Source of the DNA: Collinsella sp. AM33-4BH | GTDB taxonomy: Bacteria > Actinomycetota > Coriobacteriia > Coriobacteriales > Coriobacteriaceae | Reading direction: 5' to 3' | Assembly: GCF_003469205.1 (NCBI RefSeq) | Contig: NZ_QSIN01000009.1 | Span: 31,768-95,767, forward strand | DNA length: 64,000 bases | Shown here: in pieces, positions 3,622 through 64,000 of the stretch | Numbering within the stretch: position 1 is the stretch's first letter | How the letters are laid out: every line of letters begins with the position of its first letter | The notes under the pieces: generated by a model | Seen by the model: only the letters and a program-made list of their open reading frames with translations | Database searches by the model: none | What the model was told of the DNA's origin: nothing | Program-made: the position numbers and the translations under genes

Positions 3622-5533
3622 GGCAACGACCGCCGAGCGCGCGCTCAACCGCAAGGGCGGCACCATGTCGCGCCTCATCAAGACGCTCTTTGGCTTCTAC
3701 CCCGTGCTTTTGCCCCTCGTCGTCGCCGGCGTGGTGCTCTGCGCCATCATCAACTCCATCGGCGCGACCTTCCTGCAGAGCGCCCTGCAGATTATTAGCG
3801 AATCGTGGCAGTCGGGCGATTGGGAAGCCGCACAGCCCAAGATTCTGCAGCTCGTGACCACCCTCGCCTGCATCTACGGCGTCGGTGTCCTGTCCTCGCT
3901 CTTCTGGAACCGCGCCATGGCTATCGTCACGCAGGGCTCGCTCGAGAAGCTGCGCGAGATGATGTTCAACCGCATGCAGGACCTGCCGATCCGCTACTTC
4001 GACACGCACCAGCGCGGCGATATCATGAGCCACTACACCAACGACATCGACACGCTGCGTCAGATGATCAGCCAGTCGCTGCCCAACCTGCTCATGACGA
4101 TCATCATCATCGTTACGGTGTTCTTTATCATGCTGTACTACAGCGTGTGGATGTGCCTGGTCATCATCGCCGGCGTCGCCTTTATGACCTTTATGACCAA
4201 GCTGCTCGGCTCCAACTCCGCGCGCTTCTTTATTGCGCAGCAGACCGAGCTCGGCGTGGTCGAGGGCCATATCGAGGAAGTTATGAACGGCCAGAAGGTC
4301 GTCAAGGCGTTCTGCCACGAGTCTGCCGCCGAGGCCGATTTTGACGAGCGCAACGAAAAGCTCTTCGAGGTCTCCCAGAAGGCCAACATGTACGCCAACA
4401 TCCTCATGCCCATCCTTATGAACCTGGGCAACCTGCTCTACGTGCTGGTCGCACTGGCGGGCGGCATTTTCCTGGCGCTGGGCGTGCCCAACCTGAGCAT
4501 CTCGGGCATGGCGCTGTCCATCGCAGTCGTAGTGCCGTTCCTCAACATGACCAAGCAGTTCTGCGGACAGATCGGTCAGATCTCGCAGCAGATCAACGCC
4601 GTGGTCATGGGCCTCGCCGGCGCCGATCGCATCTTTGAGCTTATCGACGAGAAGCCCGAGGCCGACGAAGGCTACGTAACGCTCGTCAACGCGCAGGTGA
4701 ACCCCGAGACTTGGGAGTTCGAGGAGGCTGACCACCACACCGGCATGTGGGCATGGAAACACCCACACCGCGCAACCGGCGAGATCGAGTACGTACCGCT
4801 GCGCGGCGACCTGGTCATGGACAACGTCGACTTTGGCTACACGCCCGACCACGAGGTGCTGCACGGCGTGTCCGTGTTTGCCAAGCCGGGTCAGAAGGTC
4901 GCGTTTGTCGGCGCCACCGGTGCCGGTAAGACGACCATCACCAACCTCATCAACCGCTTCTACGACATTGCCGACGGCAAGATCCGCTACGACGGCATCA
5001 ACGTCAACAAGATCCGCAAGGCAGATCTGCGCCGCTCGCTGGGCGTGGTGCTGCAGGACGTGAACCTGTTCACTGGCACCGTGATGGACAACATCCGCTA
5101 CGGCAACCTGGACGCCACCGACGAGGAGTGCATCGCGGCGGCCAAGCTCGCCGGCGCGGACGACTTTATCACCCGCCTGCCCGACGGCTACGACACCATG
5201 CTCACCGGTAACGGTGCCCAGCTGTCGCAGGGCCAGCGCCAGCTGATTTCGATCGCGCGCGCCGCCGTGGCCGATCCGCCGGCGATGATTCTGGACGAGG
5301 CCACGAGCTCCATCGACACCCGCACCGAGGCTATCGTGCAGGCGGGCATGGATAAGCTCATGGAGGGCCGCACGACGTTTGTCATCGCACACCGCCTCTC
5401 CACCGTGCGTAACTCCGACGCGATCATCTGCCTGGACCACGGCCGCATCATCGAGCGTGGCAACCACGACGAGCTGATCGCCAAGCGCGGGTATTACTAC
5501 CAGCTGTACACGGGTGCATTTGAGCTGGAGTAG
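3614..5533 (+). CDS. ABC exporter subunit with canonical ATPase site
   Basis: A 639-residue half-transporter, partner of the preceding gene. The ATG at 3614 overlaps the upstream stop by 8 bases and has GGAGG 8 bases before it; an open frame continues further upstream but has no better start. After six membrane helices there is an insertion of about 45 residues before the ATPase domain (VNPETWEFEEADHHTG region), seen in this subfamily. Walker A is GATGAGKTT, the signature is LSQGQRQLISIARA and Walker B ends LDEA with the catalytic Glu562. This half therefore supplies the hydrolysis-competent Walker B. The operon ends in a cluster of hairpins. Confidence 0.9.
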   Translation: MSKATTAERALNRKGGTMSRLIKTLFGFYPVLLPLVVAGVVLCAIINSIGATFLQSALQIISESWQSGDWEAAQPKILQLVTTLACIYGVGVLSSLFWNRAMAIVTQGSLEKLREMMFNRMQDLPIRYFDTHQRGDIMSHYTNDIDTLRQMISQSLPNLLMTIIIIVTVFFIMLYYSVWMCLVIIAGVAFMTFMTKLLGSNSARFFIAQQTELGVVEGHIEEVMNGQKVVKAFCHESAAEADFDERNEKLFEVSQKANMYANILMPILMNLGNLLYVLVALAGGIFLALGVPNLSISGMALSIAVVVPFLNMTKQFCGQIGQISQQINAVVMGLAGADRIFELIDEKPEADEGYVTLVNAQVNPETWEFEEADHHTGMWAWKHPHRATGEIEYVPLRGDLVMDNVDFGYTPDHEVLHGVSVFAKPGQKVAFVGATGAGKTTITNLINRFYDIADGKIRYDGINVNKIRKADLRRSLGVVLQDVNLFTGTVMDNIRYGNLDATDEECIAAAKLAGADDFITRLPDGYDTMLTGNGAQLSQGQRQLISIARAAVADPPAMILDEATSSIDTRTEAIVQAGMDKLMEGRTTFVIAHRLSTVRNSDAIICLDHGRIIERGNHDELIAKRGYYYQLYTGAFELE

Positions 5534-5547
5534 GAACGGTTACTGAC

Positions 5548-5653
5548 GGAGGGTGCCCCGGGGCGGCGGGGTAATTCCTCCGTGCTCAAACATTCTCGCT
5601 TCGCTGCGAAACTGCGCGCGGAGGAAATACCCCGCCGCTCCGGGGCACCCTCC
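5548..5653. repeat. 35-bp inverted repeat with 36-bp loop
   Basis: Arms at 5548-5582 and 5619-5653 are complementary over 35 positions with about three mismatches. They start with GGAGGGTGCCCCGG and end with its complement. The element follows the ABC operon stop directly and could act as a terminator or mRNA 3' stabiliser; it has no T-run of its own. Confidence 0.8.
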
Positions 5654-5696
5654 TGCGCGCAATCAGCCCGTTGTTTAAAACGGAATAAAGGTTAGT

Positions 5697-5730
5697 GAGG
5701 CCCTGGCCGTTTGGCCAGGGCCTCGTTTTG
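5697..5730 (+). terminator. intrinsic terminator of the ABC operon
   Basis: A perfect 12-bp stem, GAGGCCCTGGCC (5697-5708) and its complement (5713-5724), with a 4-base loop and GTTTTG after it. Confidence 0.85.
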
Positions 5731-5731
5731 T

Positions 5732-5822
5732 TAGTCTTTTTGGGACGGGGCTTTTTGACTACTTTGAGGGTGCGCAGGCAGGGCGGCAAAAGTAGCTAAA
5801 AAGCCCCGTCCCAAAAAGACTA
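5732..5822. repeat. 34-bp inverted repeat between convergent genes
   Basis: Arms at 5732-5765 and 5788-5822, beginning TAGTCTTTTTGGGACGGGGC, pair almost perfectly around a 22-base loop. With T-rich arms on both strands it can serve as a bidirectional terminator between the ABC operon and the LysR gene. A diverged copy with the same core occurs at 52393-52462. With the two preceding hairpins this fills the 5534-5837 gap; no gene is seen there. Confidence 0.8.
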
Positions 5823-59639: not shown

Positions 59640-61643
59640 TTATGCGAACTGGCTTAGGTAGAGGTCGGCATAAGCGCCCTCGGCAGCCAGCAGCTCCTTG
59701 TGCGTACCCTGCTCGATGATATTGCCGTGATCCATGACCAGGATGAGGTCGGCATCGACGATCGTCGACAGACGGTGCGCGATCACAAAGCTCGTGCGCC
59801 CGCGCATGAGCGCATCCATGGCACGGCCGATGGCGAGCTCGGTGCGCGTGTCCACGCTCGACGTCGCCTCGTCCAGGATGAGGATCGCCGGGTTGTTGAG
59901 CAGCACGCGCGCGATGGTCAGCAGCTGACGTTGGCCCTGGCTGATGCTCTCGGCATCGTTAGCCACACGCGTGTCGTAGCCCTGCGGCATAGTGCGCACA
60001 AAGAAGTCGACCTGGGCGGCACGTGCGGCCGCGACAATCTCCTCGCGCGCCGCCTCGGGACAGCCGTAGGCGATGTTCTCGGCAATGGTGCCATCAAATA
60101 GCCAAGCGTCCTGCAACACCATGCCAAACTGCTGGCGCAGCTCGCCGCGGTTCATGCGGCTCGTGTCCACGCCGTCGAGGGTAATGCGGCCGCCGTCGAT
60201 CTCGTAAAAGCGCATGAGCAGGTTGATGAGCGTGGTCTTACCCGCACCCGTGGTTCCCACCACGGCGATCTTCTGACCCGGCTCGGCGGTAAACGACACG
60301 TCTCGCATAAGCGGCTTGTCGGACGAATAGCCAAAGCGCACATGCTCAAAAGCGATGCGGCCCTCCACCTTGCCCGACAGCTTGGCGGCGGCCACCGGCA
60401 ACGGATCGGCCTCCATCTCGGGCTCGTCGAGCAGGTCGAACACACGCTCTGCGCTCGCCAGCGCACTCTGCAGCGAGTTAAAGGTAAACGACAGCTCCGT
60501 CATGGGCTCGGACGCCTCGTAGATAAATTGGAAGAACGCCTGGAACACGCCGACGGTCATATGCCCGGCAACCAGCATGCTGCAGCCCACCAGCGCGATC
60601 ACGATCTGCGCCAAACGGCCGATAAAGCGCACCGCGGGGCCGACGGCGTTAATCATAAAGTCGGCCTTGGTGCTCACGCGCGCCAGCTCCTTCGAAGCCT
60701 CGTGCACCTCGGCAGAGCTCTGGCGCTCGCGGTTAAACGCACGGATCACCAGACGGCCCGAGTAGCCCTCCTCGACCGCGCTCGTAATCTTGGACACCCA
60801 CTCCTGGCGCTCGCCCGTCACATCATGCGTGCGGCGCGACACGACCTTCGTCACCAGCAGCGAAAGCGCCGTAAAGAACAAAAAGACGAGCGTGAGCGGC
60901 ACGCTAAACACGAACATCACGCTCACGGCGCCCACCACGGTACCGATCGACACCAGAAGCTGCAGCAGTCCGCGCTGCATGCTTTCGGACATCTTGTCCA
61001 AGTCGTTGGTCGCACGGCTGACGACCTCGCCGGGACGATGCGCGTCAAAGTAGGCAAGTGGCAGACGGTTGAGCTTTTGTGCGATGCGGTTGCGCAGGCG
61101 CAGGTTGAGGCGCTCGGCAACGCTCGACATCAAAAAGCTCTGGAGTGCGTAGAACGAGGCGGCGGCGGTCCAGATCATAAAGTAGATAAAGATGGTCCTG
61201 CCGCAGTTCTCCCAGGTAATACTGAAGGTAGTGTTGTTGGCAAACGCCAGCTTCATGTGCCCCCACAGCTCATCGATCACGCGGGCGCTGTAAGCCGGCG
61301 CTGCGGTGTTAAAGATGGCATAGAACACGATACTCGCGAACACGATATAGAAGCGCCAATGGTCGCCGGCGGCCTCGCTCCACAGGCGGCGCACCGTCGC
61401 CCAGGTGTCGCGGGGCGTCTCGTCCTCGTCCTCGTCGTCAACGTCGCGCATGCGCTCCGCCTCGGCGCGGGCACGCTCGTCCTCGGCGCGCTCGTTTTCC
61501 TCGTAGAGTGCCTGGCGGCGAGCCTCGCGCTCCGCCGCTGCCTTGGCGGCTTCGTCCAGGTCGGGCGTGGCGCCCGTCTCCTCGACTGTCTCTGCAGCCG
61601 CGACGTCATCGGCGATGCTCCGCTTCTTGAGTTCCTCGGTCAT
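59640..61643 (-). CDS. ABC exporter subunit with canonical ATPase site (pair 3)
   Basis: A 667-residue half-transporter with an unusually long, highly charged cytosolic N-terminus (about 85 residues, rich in Glu/Ala/Arg, ending in acidic VDDEDEDETP). Six helices and an ATPase domain follow: Walker A GTTGAGKTT, signature ISQGQRQLLTIARV, Walker B LILDEATSSVD with the catalytic Glu. ATG 61643 starts one base after the upstream stop, 8 bases after GGAGG. This is the active-site half of pair 3. Confidence 0.9.
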   Translation of the reverse strand: MTEELKKRSIADDVAAAETVEETGATPDLDEAAKAAAEREARRQALYEENERAEDERARAEAERMRDVDDEDEDETPRDTWATVRRLWSEAAGDHWRFYIVFASIVFYAIFNTAAPAYSARVIDELWGHMKLAFANNTTFSITWENCGRTIFIYFMIWTAAASFYALQSFLMSSVAERLNLRLRNRIAQKLNRLPLAYFDAHRPGEVVSRATNDLDKMSESMQRGLLQLLVSIGTVVGAVSVMFVFSVPLTLVFLFFTALSLLVTKVVSRRTHDVTGERQEWVSKITSAVEEGYSGRLVIRAFNRERQSSAEVHEASKELARVSTKADFMINAVGPAVRFIGRLAQIVIALVGCSMLVAGHMTVGVFQAFFQFIYEASEPMTELSFTFNSLQSALASAERVFDLLDEPEMEADPLPVAAAKLSGKVEGRIAFEHVRFGYSSDKPLMRDVSFTAEPGQKIAVVGTTGAGKTTLINLLMRFYEIDGGRITLDGVDTSRMNRGELRQQFGMVLQDAWLFDGTIAENIAYGCPEAAREEIVAAARAAQVDFFVRTMPQGYDTRVANDAESISQGQRQLLTIARVLLNNPAILILDEATSSVDTRTELAIGRAMDALMRGRTSFVIAHRLSTIVDADLILVMDHGNIIEQGTHKELLAAEGAYADLYLSQFA

Positions 61644-61644
61644 G

Positions 61645-63381
61645 CTACTCACCTCCCTTCATCTGCGATTCTGCGATAGCGCGGTACACCTCGCAGGTTT
61701 CCATGAGCTCGTCGTGCGTGCCTAGGCCCACGACTTCACCGTCTTTGAGCACCACAATCTGATCGGCATGCAAAATAGTCGAGATGCGCTGGGCGATGAT
61801 GAGCACCGCGGCATCGTACGTCTCGTCCTGCAGCGCATGGCGCAGTGCCGCATCGGTCTTAAAGTCCAGGGCCGAAAAACTGTCGTCGAAGATATACAGG
61901 TCGGCGCGCTTCATCAGTGCGCGGGCGATTGCCAAACGCTGGCGCTGGCCGCCCGAAAAGTTCGTACCGCCCTGGGCCACCGGAGTATCGAGCCCCTGGG
62001 GCTGGTCGAGCACAAAGGTGCTCTGGGCAACCTCCAGCGCATGGAGCATGTCAGCCTCGGTCGCGTCTTCGTTGCCAAAGCGCAGGTTGCTCGCCACCGT
62101 ACCCGAGAACAGCCATGCCTTCTGCGGCACATAGGCGATACGCCCGCGGATATCGTCTTGCGAAAGGTCGCGCAGATCGACGCCGTTTAGGCGAATGGCG
62201 CCCTTCGTGGCATCGTGGAAGCGAAGCAAGAGCTTGGCCACCGTTGACTTGCCCGAGCCCGTCGAGCCCACGATCGCGGTCGTCTGTCCGCGGCGGCAGG
62301 CAAAACTCAGGTTGTAAAGGGTGTCCTCGTCGGCATCGTCAAAGCGAAACGACATGCGGTCGAACACGGCCACCGTGTCGGCCCCATCTGCGGACTCAGG
62401 TGTCCCGTCGCCCAGCGTAGCCTTACCGTCCACGATGCTCGGCTCGATTTCGAGCACCTGCTGTGCACGGCTGAGGCACGCCGCGGCGCGCGGAAGCGTC
62501 AGCACCACCACCTGCGCCATCATCACAAAGCACAGGATCAGGATCGCGTACTCCAGCACGGCCGAGATGCTGCCGATTTGCATGGCATGGACGCCCACGC
62601 GGTTGCCGCCCACCCACAGCACCGCCACCTCGGCGATATTCATCAAAAAGAAGCTGGAGCTGTCGAGACCCACAAACAGGTGGTTGACCTTGATGGCATT
62701 GGCTGCGTAATCGCTAAACACCTCGTCCAGGCGCTGCTCCTCGTGGCGCTCCTTGTTAAATGCGCGGATGACGCGCACGCCCACGATGTTCTCGCGCAGC
62801 ACCACGTTCATGCGGTCGATAAAGCTCTGCAGGCGCATAAAGATCGGCGCGGCGTTGGCAACGGTAAAGACCGCCGCCACCAGCACGATCGCAACGACCA
62901 CGCCCAGCAGCGTGCCCATGGCAGGATCGATAAACCAGGCAAAGATGATGCCCGCCACGGCCAAGAACGGTACCGGTAACACCAGCTGAATCGTCTGCAG
63001 GATCGCTTGCTGGATCACGTTGATGTCGTTGAGAGAGCGCGTGATCATCGAACCCGTACCAAAGCGCTCAAAGTCGCTGGCGGACAGCTCGAGCGACTTA
63101 TCGTAGACGGCGTTGCGAATGTCGCAGGCCACATTGGCCGCCAGACGGGCCGAAAGATAGCAGCCCAGCACCGCGCCGCCACTGGCCATGCCGGTCGCGA
63201 TGAGCATATACACGCCGTTGCGCAAGATGTAGTCGATATCACCCGTCGTGATACCAGTATTGACCATATTCGCCAACATTGTAGGCACCAGCAGCGTGCC
63301 GACGTTATCTATCAGCAGTACAAACAGCGTCACCGCAATCAGCCCGCGATACGGCCTCATAAATCTCATTAAGAGTCGCAT
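61645..63381 (-). CDS. ABC exporter subunit with degenerate Walker B (pair 3)
   Basis: A 578-residue half-transporter. Walker [10 protein letters not shown] and signature [14 protein letters not shown] are intact; Walker B ends IFDDS with Asp in place of Glu. Its start overlaps the 3' end of the tet(W)::marR fusion frame by 13 bases, as marR overlaps the exporter in pair 1. It is therefore expressed from whatever promoter reads through that fusion, now the tet(W) promoter. Confidence 0.9.
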
Positions 63382-63611
63382 GTCTCCCCTTCGCCCTTAT
63401 CGTCAGCCTCGTTCTCGGCGGCCACTTGCCGTTTAAATGCCTCGCACTCTTCGTTAAGAACATGGGAGAACTTACCGACCAAGCGCATGATCTCGCGCTG
63501 TTCCCACGGCTCGAGCGCCTCGAATGCTCCGCTGGTATATAACAGGCTCTCCGTCAAGGTCGTCTTACCTGCGTCTACATGAGCAAGAATGCCAATATTG
63601 ATGATTTTCAT
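63369..63611 (-). pseudogene. tet(W) 5' end fused in frame to the 3' end of a marR gene
   Basis: An 80-codon frame. Residues 1-29 ([20 protein letters not shown], then ESLLYTSGA) are the start of the Tet(W)/Tet(O) ribosomal protection GTPase with its P-loop AHVDAGKT. From about 63524 the sequence switches to [16 protein letters not shown] and a charged tail, which matches the last helices of a MarR repressor (compare AFSALTHDEREQL in the intact MarR at 1311-1814). Neither protein can work: the GTPase lacks all but its first motif and MarR its helix-turn-helix. The stop overlaps the ABC gene start. A sequencing-assembly chimera at a tet(W) copy cannot be excluded. Confidence 0.8.
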
Positions 63612-63644
63612 ATGATTGTCCTCCATACAAGGCCCAGAAGGGCG

Positions 63645-63681
63645 CAAAAATCCCCAGCGACAAATACTTTTACCGCTGGGG
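63645..63681 (-). promoter_or_regulatory. tet(W)-type attenuator hairpin
   Basis: On the minus strand CCCCAGCG pairs with CGCTGGGG across 21 bases and is followed by ATTTTTG. The same layout controls tet(M)/tet(W) by transcription attenuation, where ribosome stalling on a leader prevents this terminator. Just upstream an ATG at 63701 opens a leader frame that runs into the fusion frame. Confidence 0.8.
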
Positions 63682-63830
63682 ATGATAGGTAGGACACACA
63701 TGAAAACTGCGGCCAAGGCTGGCCGTTGTCTATCACGATATGAAATGAAAAGGCAAAAGTATTCTTAAATTGGGTACAAAAACCAAGCCCTCTCCTTGAG
63801 GACGTTTGTCTTTGTTCCCATTATCAAATT

Positions 63831-63854
63831 TTATTTATGAATACCTTGCCGCAT
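63831..63854 (-). CDS. seven-residue leader peptide of the tet(W) control region
   Basis: MRQGIHK with AAAGGAG upstream. The related MRQGI leader is known from the tet(M) region of Tn916. Its translation is the sensor for attenuation. Confidence 0.7.
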   Translation of the reverse strand: MRQGIHK

Positions 63855-63884
63855 ATTGATAAACTCCTTTGCTTGGATTTTTAT

Positions 63885-63913
63885 AGTATAGCATATCAAA
63901 TTCCCAAAAGCAA
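63885..63913 (-). promoter_or_regulatory. tet(W) promoter
   Basis: Minus-strand -35 TTGCTT (63908-63913), 17-bp spacer, -10 TATACT (63885-63890). The region is AT-rich, unlike the host DNA, as expected for a transferred element. Confidence 0.7.
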
Positions 63914-64000
63914 CCCTGTTAAGATAAATTTTTTCGTCACTGCACCTCCATATCTCTCTCCTTGATTGGCAACTTCATCCGAACACTTCCCACATTCATC
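63896..64000 (-). CDS. 3' end of an unidentified gene upstream of tet(W)
   Basis: The last 34 codons of a frame that enters from beyond the window. It has a Cys pair (DECGKCSDEVANQG) and ends VTKKFILTGLLLGI. Its stop lies in the tet(W) promoter spacer. It could be a gene of the mobile element that carried tet(W), or an accidental frame. I do not recognise it. Confidence 0.3.
   Translation of the reverse strand, partial: DECGKCSDEVANQGERYGGAVTKKFILTGLLLGI

Follow-up and report, generated by a model that had tools for sequence, protein, structure and literature searches.

A tet control region and its first 29 codons fused in frame to a marR remnant ahead of an ABC exporter in Collinsella

In Collinsella sp. 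AM33-4BH, the window analysed here (the whole 64,000-nucleotide stretch of contig NZ_QSIN01000009.1) carries a truncated tetracycline resistance gene that has become the head of an exporter operon. On the minus strand, the control region and 29 codons of a tet gene are read directly as running in frame into the C-terminal 51-52 residues of a MarR-like protein, and two ABC exporter genes follow. The preferred reading, at a probability of about 0.58, is promoter-and-switch capture, in which a recurrent loss of the repressor would here be combined with a tetracycline-responsive switch. The features, in the order of transcription, are as follows.

63960..64000, minus strand: terminal 41 bp of a multi-copy insertion sequence of the IS30 family, continuing beyond the window; the same end is seen in many copies in the genus
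63885..63913, minus strand: tet promoter with -35 box TTGCTT (63908-63913), 17-bp spacer and extended -10 box TGC-TATACT (63885-63890), from alignment with tet(W) promoters
63831..63854, minus strand: ORF of the leader peptide MRQGIHK, 7 codons, ATG to TAA
63650..63683, minus strand: attenuator (intrinsic terminator) hairpin, then a U run, from folding and alignment with tet leaders
63525..63611, minus strand: first 29 codons of a ribosomal-protection tet gene of the donor type seen in contig L103, from which none of the 29 codons differs
63512..63527, minus strand: joint, GCA-A/T-TCGAGGCGC-C/T-CG, common to donor tet and marR (14/16 identical)
63369..63524, minus strand: C-terminal 51 residues of MarR and stop, holding the Shine-Dalgarno-like stretch of the first exporter gene
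61645..63381, minus strand: ABC exporter subunit 1 (ABC1), 578 aa, degenerate Walker B (FDDS)
59640..61652, minus strand: ABC exporter subunit 2, 670 aa, canonical Walker B (LDEA), non-canonical signature

The fusion ORF has 80 codons, from the tet ATG at 63611 through the last tet codon, ending at 63525, to the MarR stop at 63369. In tblastn searches of the window, an intact MarR orthologue gives a single match, residues 119-170 at 98%, and full-length Tet(W) matches at the joint with residues 1-30 (90%); the two remaining Tet(W) matches lie elsewhere and are weak (E 0.004 and 0.81). An in-frame passage from a tet start to a marR 3′ end after codon 29, as the preliminary description had it from the letters alone, is thus confirmed by direct reading and by tblastn. 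Its normal marR-ABC overlap is likewise borne out, as the ABC1 ATG at 63381 lies 13 bases back into the fusion ORF. The claim that the repressor is lost holds for its DNA-binding part: MarR residues 1-118, which include the wing-helix, find no match in the window by tblastn, so no MarR winged helix is present, and the operator-like repeats seen upstream of marR in relatives are gone, but the C-terminal 51-52 residues remain. The sequence 3′ of the joint is 85.5-93.4% identical to that of relatives (n=13 fetched).

Both exporter subunits are complete, each with an ABC_membrane and an ABC_tran domain. Two TMD-NBD halves in tandem, one of them with a degenerate ATP site, characterize a predicted heterodimeric ABC exporter of the TM287/288 and EfrCD kind. 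Among solved structures the best sequence matches are 8wcw and 9iqe (chains A and B); chains A and B of 3qf4, presumably TM287/288, are also matched. The heterodimer-type exporter claimed to lie behind a tet-type attenuated promoter is therefore present in its predicted anatomy, with its ORFs intact. The Tet(46) tetracycline efflux models give 177-269 bits for the window's subunits, far below their NCBIfam cut-off of 1250, and so provide no indication that the exporter would be specific for tetracycline. No close match to the exporter region is found in plasmid or phage records.

The captured region contains everything that a ribosomal-protection tet control region comprises, namely a promoter, a 7-codon MRQGI-K leader, a terminator hairpin and an RBS (GGAGG, between hairpin and tet ATG). 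The predicted folding energy of the leader RNA is -110 kcal/mol, where shuffled sequences average -73.8 (z -7.0), and the terminator hairpin is kept in 6 tet leaders with two-sided changes at 4 of its 19 pairs. A resemblance to Rfam RF02864 extends over 63667-63833 (53.6 bits, E 1.2e-9, below the gathering score of 123), and of the model NF033148 only the first 32 positions are matched in the window. Generic scans of the window picked out a different promoter-like site and a different pair of terminator-like hairpins, and called neither the captured promoter nor the attenuator hairpin. The leader had been read as MRQGIHK, and it is present in that form, but this is not the usual tet leader: all fetched loci that match the pattern read MRQGILK (24/24, or 22 distinct copies with two genomes occurring twice), a count whose pattern leaves aside L010 and L012, where the leader differs at other places.

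A donor-type copy of this region lies in a contig of the viral collection, L103 (IMGVR_UViG_3300031993_006331), which contains a whole tet gene and is the sole viral-collection contig matched by an exact 61-base probe. Across the control region and the first 29 codons, 433 of 440 aligned columns are identical between L103 and the window. The seven that differ, between 63838 and 63935, comprise a one-base gap, a substitution in the -10 box (TATACT in the window, TATATT in L103), a 4-base gap that shortens the window near the start site, and a substitution at leader codon 6 (Leu in L103, His in the window). Among viral contigs, a probe for the leader finds no match when codon 6 is as in the window, and L103 alone when either base is allowed there. 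Because of the changes at leader codon 6, the -10 box and the start site, basal level and induction may have changed relative to L103; the differences could possibly reflect regulatory tuning after capture, or L103's own variation. They cluster in promoter, transcript start and leader (63838, 63882-63886, 63935), and none occurs in the next 313 bases.

A tetracycline resistance protein is assigned to the tet(W) class if it is at least 80% identical to Tet(W). The protein of L103 is 78.6% identical to the best Tet(W) among the 10 matches listed, beyond which 11 further records have their best place at 80-90% identity; in a comparison with the Tet(W) of L058, 503 residues are identical over lengths of 644 and 639. 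It scores above the cut-off of the TetM/W/O/S model (1247.7 vs 1100). By the class rule, tet(W), the name given in the preliminary description, is not the right one for the donor type, which is a relative of tet(W) and possibly belongs to an unnamed class. Within the bacterial class of the window's genome, tet control regions occur in 40 of 396 genomes and are, among the matches listed, at most about 82-83% alike, and they occur in 5 of 396 genomes of the phylum; none in either set is near-identical to the window. Relatives in plasmid and phage records reach at most about 82% over long stretches among the matches listed; in one such search a single record falls at 90-95% and two more at 80-90%, the 81.1% one being the sole member of these three among the 40 matches listed, and another contained a short piece at 83.3%.

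The whole ribosomal-protection gene of L103 spans positions 3865-5799 of a contig filed as viral. We take other L103 ORFs to be serine-recombinase-like and relaxase-like, and for this reason the tet gene appears to sit on a mobile element that is not obviously a virus. Two metagenome proteins (P0040 and P0048) begin with the upstream reading frame of L103 and continue into tet with IEAPGSV, as L103 does. A further protein, P0043, in which a tet start is joined after ..GAIEA to another ORF, was considered as showing a third fusion partner and rejected, its tail lying in the ORF upstream of tet in L103. Since that tail falls within an L103 ORF, P0043 looks like a rearrangement inside the donor element, of another kind than the fusion but at the same spot in tet.

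In 37 of the 43 genus genomes MarR is matched at E 1e-10 or better; 22 of these matches are close orthologues (80-100% identity) and 15 stand at 41-53%. All but one of the close orthologues are intact (21/22), aligning over 162-170 of 170 residues, and in 14 of these 21 a TAG directly precedes a second start codon (MVG-stop-MNSAV), so that they begin four codons later. The intact orthologue matches MarR_2 below threshold (24.1 bits vs a Pfam cut-off of 27). Two operator-like repeats of the type TAGTCAAAACTCGGACTA lie upstream of marR in 15 of the 16 regions located from the 22 close orthologues, the first overlying a TTGACG-17-TAATnT promoter; the window has none. The 13-base marR-ABC overlap is identical in 21 of 29 fetched locus stretches, some of which share a genome, the script having located no MarR end in the other 8.

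A different change to this locus is seen in one relative, G063, where 24 MarR residues (72 bases between two copies of GGATGCT) are lost in frame and a single operator-like repeat remains. The same genome (locus stretches L084/L045) has a tet(W)-type gene (L022/L057) in addition to the in-frame MarR deletion and the loss of one of the two repeats.

At the joint the donor reads GGAGCAATCGAGGCGCCCGG, the recipient AGGCATTCGAGGCGCTCGAG and the window GGAGCATTCGAGGCGCTCGAG. No exact word shared by the donor's first 80 codons and some 500 bases of marR is longer than the 9-bp TCGAGGCGC. Short-homology recombination at a GCGGAGC-like sequence had been proposed for the joint; the short homology is there, but the relevant word is TCGAGGCGC, which adjoins GCGGAGC. 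This word stands in the same codon phase in tet and in marR, so any crossover within it is in frame, and because the phase of the homology dictates the frame, the in-frame joint is weak evidence for selection. The exact overlap at the window's own crossover is only 3 bp, with the 9 bp beside it. Exact-joint scans of viral and genome contigs found no other fusion, nor did gapped and degenerate scans, in which the gapped pattern recovers the window once. The comparison with related Collinsella that the preliminary description had proposed yielded the intact marR locus but not the joint, which has no match across it in any of the 43 genus genomes (0/43) and none in species-representative contigs, indicating a strain-level trait that is perhaps recent.

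As judged from protein sequences, the fusion architecture recurs in other metagenomes. The 80-aa fusion used as a protein query has 555 matches, 120 of them listed, and among those listed ten fusion clusters (P0001-P0010) from 20 contigs cover the whole query at 81-99% identity. Another, P0012 (93 aa, 6 contigs), enters a tet(W)-type allele about 51 codons deep and joins MarR at ERQ-REIM. The joint residues vary: FEAL in the window and P0001, FEAF in P0002, IEAR in P0003, IEAP in P0004, IEAL in P0005, P0006, P0009 and P0010, IEALMA in P0007 and IEPW in P0008. FEAL, IEAL and IEAP would be the three crossovers allowed by two mismatches in the 16-letter homology, and IEPW would fit a second homology, TCGAG; these junction classes are drawn from protein letters, and some may stem from point mutation after a single event. 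The MarR tail of P0009 is that of another species type (genomes G003/G024), and P0012 has yet another tail. Differing junctions and MarR tails indicate several events, or one event spread by recombination. In P0010, which may be error-prone, compensating frame changes occur close to the end. A second protein search, started from P0012, gave no new fusion class among 120 listed of 691 matches.

As a control, wrong-frame fusions were sought, and no candidate appeared, one of the two wrong frames being properly covered; among 223 fetched proteins, wrong-frame words occur only in P0010, within an in-frame fusion. This control depends on gene calling, as callers may drop such ORFs and a protein search favours in-frame fusions. 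Among the same 120 listed matches, reading of the sequences also reveals in-frame internal MarR deletions (P0014, P0015, P0017, P0018 and P0022) and MarR proteins with a foreign N-terminus (P0011, P0019, P0020 and P0042), that of P0020 coming from an ORF which in a relative lies about 3.5 kb upstream of marR. The 44-140 aa range of the search selects shortened forms, so counts of these MarR changes are not frequencies, and some of the shortened forms may be assembly faults.

These observations can be assembled into a sequence of events. The ancestral operon, as seen in relatives, was marR-ABC-ABC, with the MarR-like gene at its head and two operator-like repeats at its promoter, and MarR would have repressed its own ABC operon. 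A tet gene of the L103 type would have come to lie near marR, probably together with IS30, and recombined with it through TCGAGGCGC. This would have removed the stretch from tet codon 29 to MarR residue 119, wing-helix and operator-like repeats included, which is absent from the window, and set the exporter behind the tet promoter, leader and attenuator, where it now stands. Without drug, most transcripts would end at the hairpin. Tetracycline would slow ribosomes on the leader, the terminator would fail to form, and transcription would proceed into the fused ORF. Ribosomes that initiate at the tet ATG would translate all 80 codons of the fusion, as far as the former marR stop, and then restart 13 bases back on ABC1; given such a restart, the in-frame joint keeps translational coupling. 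Repeated fusions and in-frame MarR deletions suggest selection for higher exporter output. A wider version of this account, held tentatively and at somewhat less than even odds, is that tet genes of gut Collinsella donate an inducible cassette to a chromosomal exporter by repeated short-homology recombination, for which the 9 bp act as a hot spot, apparently in more than one species and from two or more tet alleles, so that a repressed pump becomes tetracycline-switched and the resistance enzyme is discarded.

The strongest competitor, though an unlikely one, is that selection acted on loss of MarR only, the tet promoter being merely strong and the attenuator incidental, or broken by the changes in leader and -10 box. 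It draws on the MarR changes that occur without tet (P0014, P0015, P0017, P0018, P0020, P0022 and G063), and on the fact that the window departs from L103 precisely in leader and promoter while the following 313 bases are identical. Against simple derepression, however, the hairpin, leader frame and RBS are all present, and the tet route has been used with at least two tet alleles (P0012 versus the rest). A neutral relic, in which tet inserted near marR and a deletion fused what remained to no benefit, is distinctly less probable. The short homology would give such a joint a simple mechanical cause and the many IS30 copies make rearrangements likely, but the two ABC ORFs, the overlap and the control region have all stayed intact, and the fusion is found repeatedly, with junctions and MarR tails that differ. 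Finally, an assembly chimera of a tet copy and the marR-ABC locus, the refuting case named in the preliminary description, would agree with the lack of the exact joint in any other viral or genome contig scanned, but it is very improbable because an exact overlap of 3 bp, with 9 bp beside it, is too short for a k-mer misjoin, and ten clusters from other sources (lgn, ena and jgi) have the same architecture.

The proposed promoter-and-switch capture can be set beside several known systems. In Bacillus subtilis, BmrB-BmrCD is a multidrug ABC exporter for which antibiotics that act on protein synthesis release transcription by way of a translated leader and a terminator; its leader is native, whereas the window's leader is taken from a tet gene of the ribosomal-protection kind and precedes a fusion with a repressor remnant (PMC4191407). 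PatAB of Streptococcus pneumoniae is similar in that a cis change at an intrinsic terminator before an ABC exporter raises expression, but there point mutations weaken the native terminator, whereas in the window a foreign attenuated promoter replaces most of the repressor gene (PMC4319486). The promoter, leader and hairpin layout is that of tet(M)/tet(W)-type control, in which a ribosomal-protection gene rather than an exporter lies downstream (PMC3350403; PMC5418344). In the actinobacterium Corynebacterium resistens, tet(W) mRNA rises 52-fold after 24 h at 2 ug/ml tetracycline, the leader's role in this induction being left open by the authors (PMC3350403). This induction, together with BmrCD as a native analogue, lends support to a tetracycline response of the captured switch.

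TetAB(46), TetAB(60) and TrexAB are likewise two-gene heterodimeric ABC exporters, and TetAB(60) and TrexAB were shown to affect tetracycline susceptibility (PMC5138185; PMC12256430). The Tet(46) scores given above set the window's subunits apart from TetAB(46)-type pumps. Laboratory evolution in E. coli indicates that the neighbourhood of a drug-resistance gene under selection shapes adaptation, and that report names promoter capture and efflux pumps, but it concerns a placed reporter gene and appears to involve neither a tet control region nor a repressor fusion (PMC5526668). Among the papers listed in searches for tet-exporter fusions or promoter capture of this sort, no precedent for the combination was found.

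Resistance surveys count tet genes by coding sequence, and they would record as broken a truncated tet whose regulatory part had come to drive a different pump. Resistance evolution may here have reused the tet switch and not the tet gene. If the switch works, it would be a natural regulatory exaptation under antibiotic pressure that probably occurred more than once, and with donor type, recipient and recombination site identified, it is directly testable in carrier strains.

The element at the window's end was at one point taken for IS200/IS605-like from its palindrome, an identity rejected on the basis of its transposase. Full copies in relatives have the transposase and conserved ends of the IS30 family, the window itself holding 41 bp; their transposase contains an HTH_38 domain, and for one full copy the match is an ‘IS30 family transposase’ of a Collinsella aerofaciens record, at 95.5%. 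In the window, 46 bp separate the IS30-family end from the captured -35 box downstream of it. Two tet copies in other genus genomes (L002 and L011) are likewise preceded, a few dozen bases before the promoter, by an IS30-like end (palindrome, then ..AATCAA), and IS30 may thus accompany tet within the genus.
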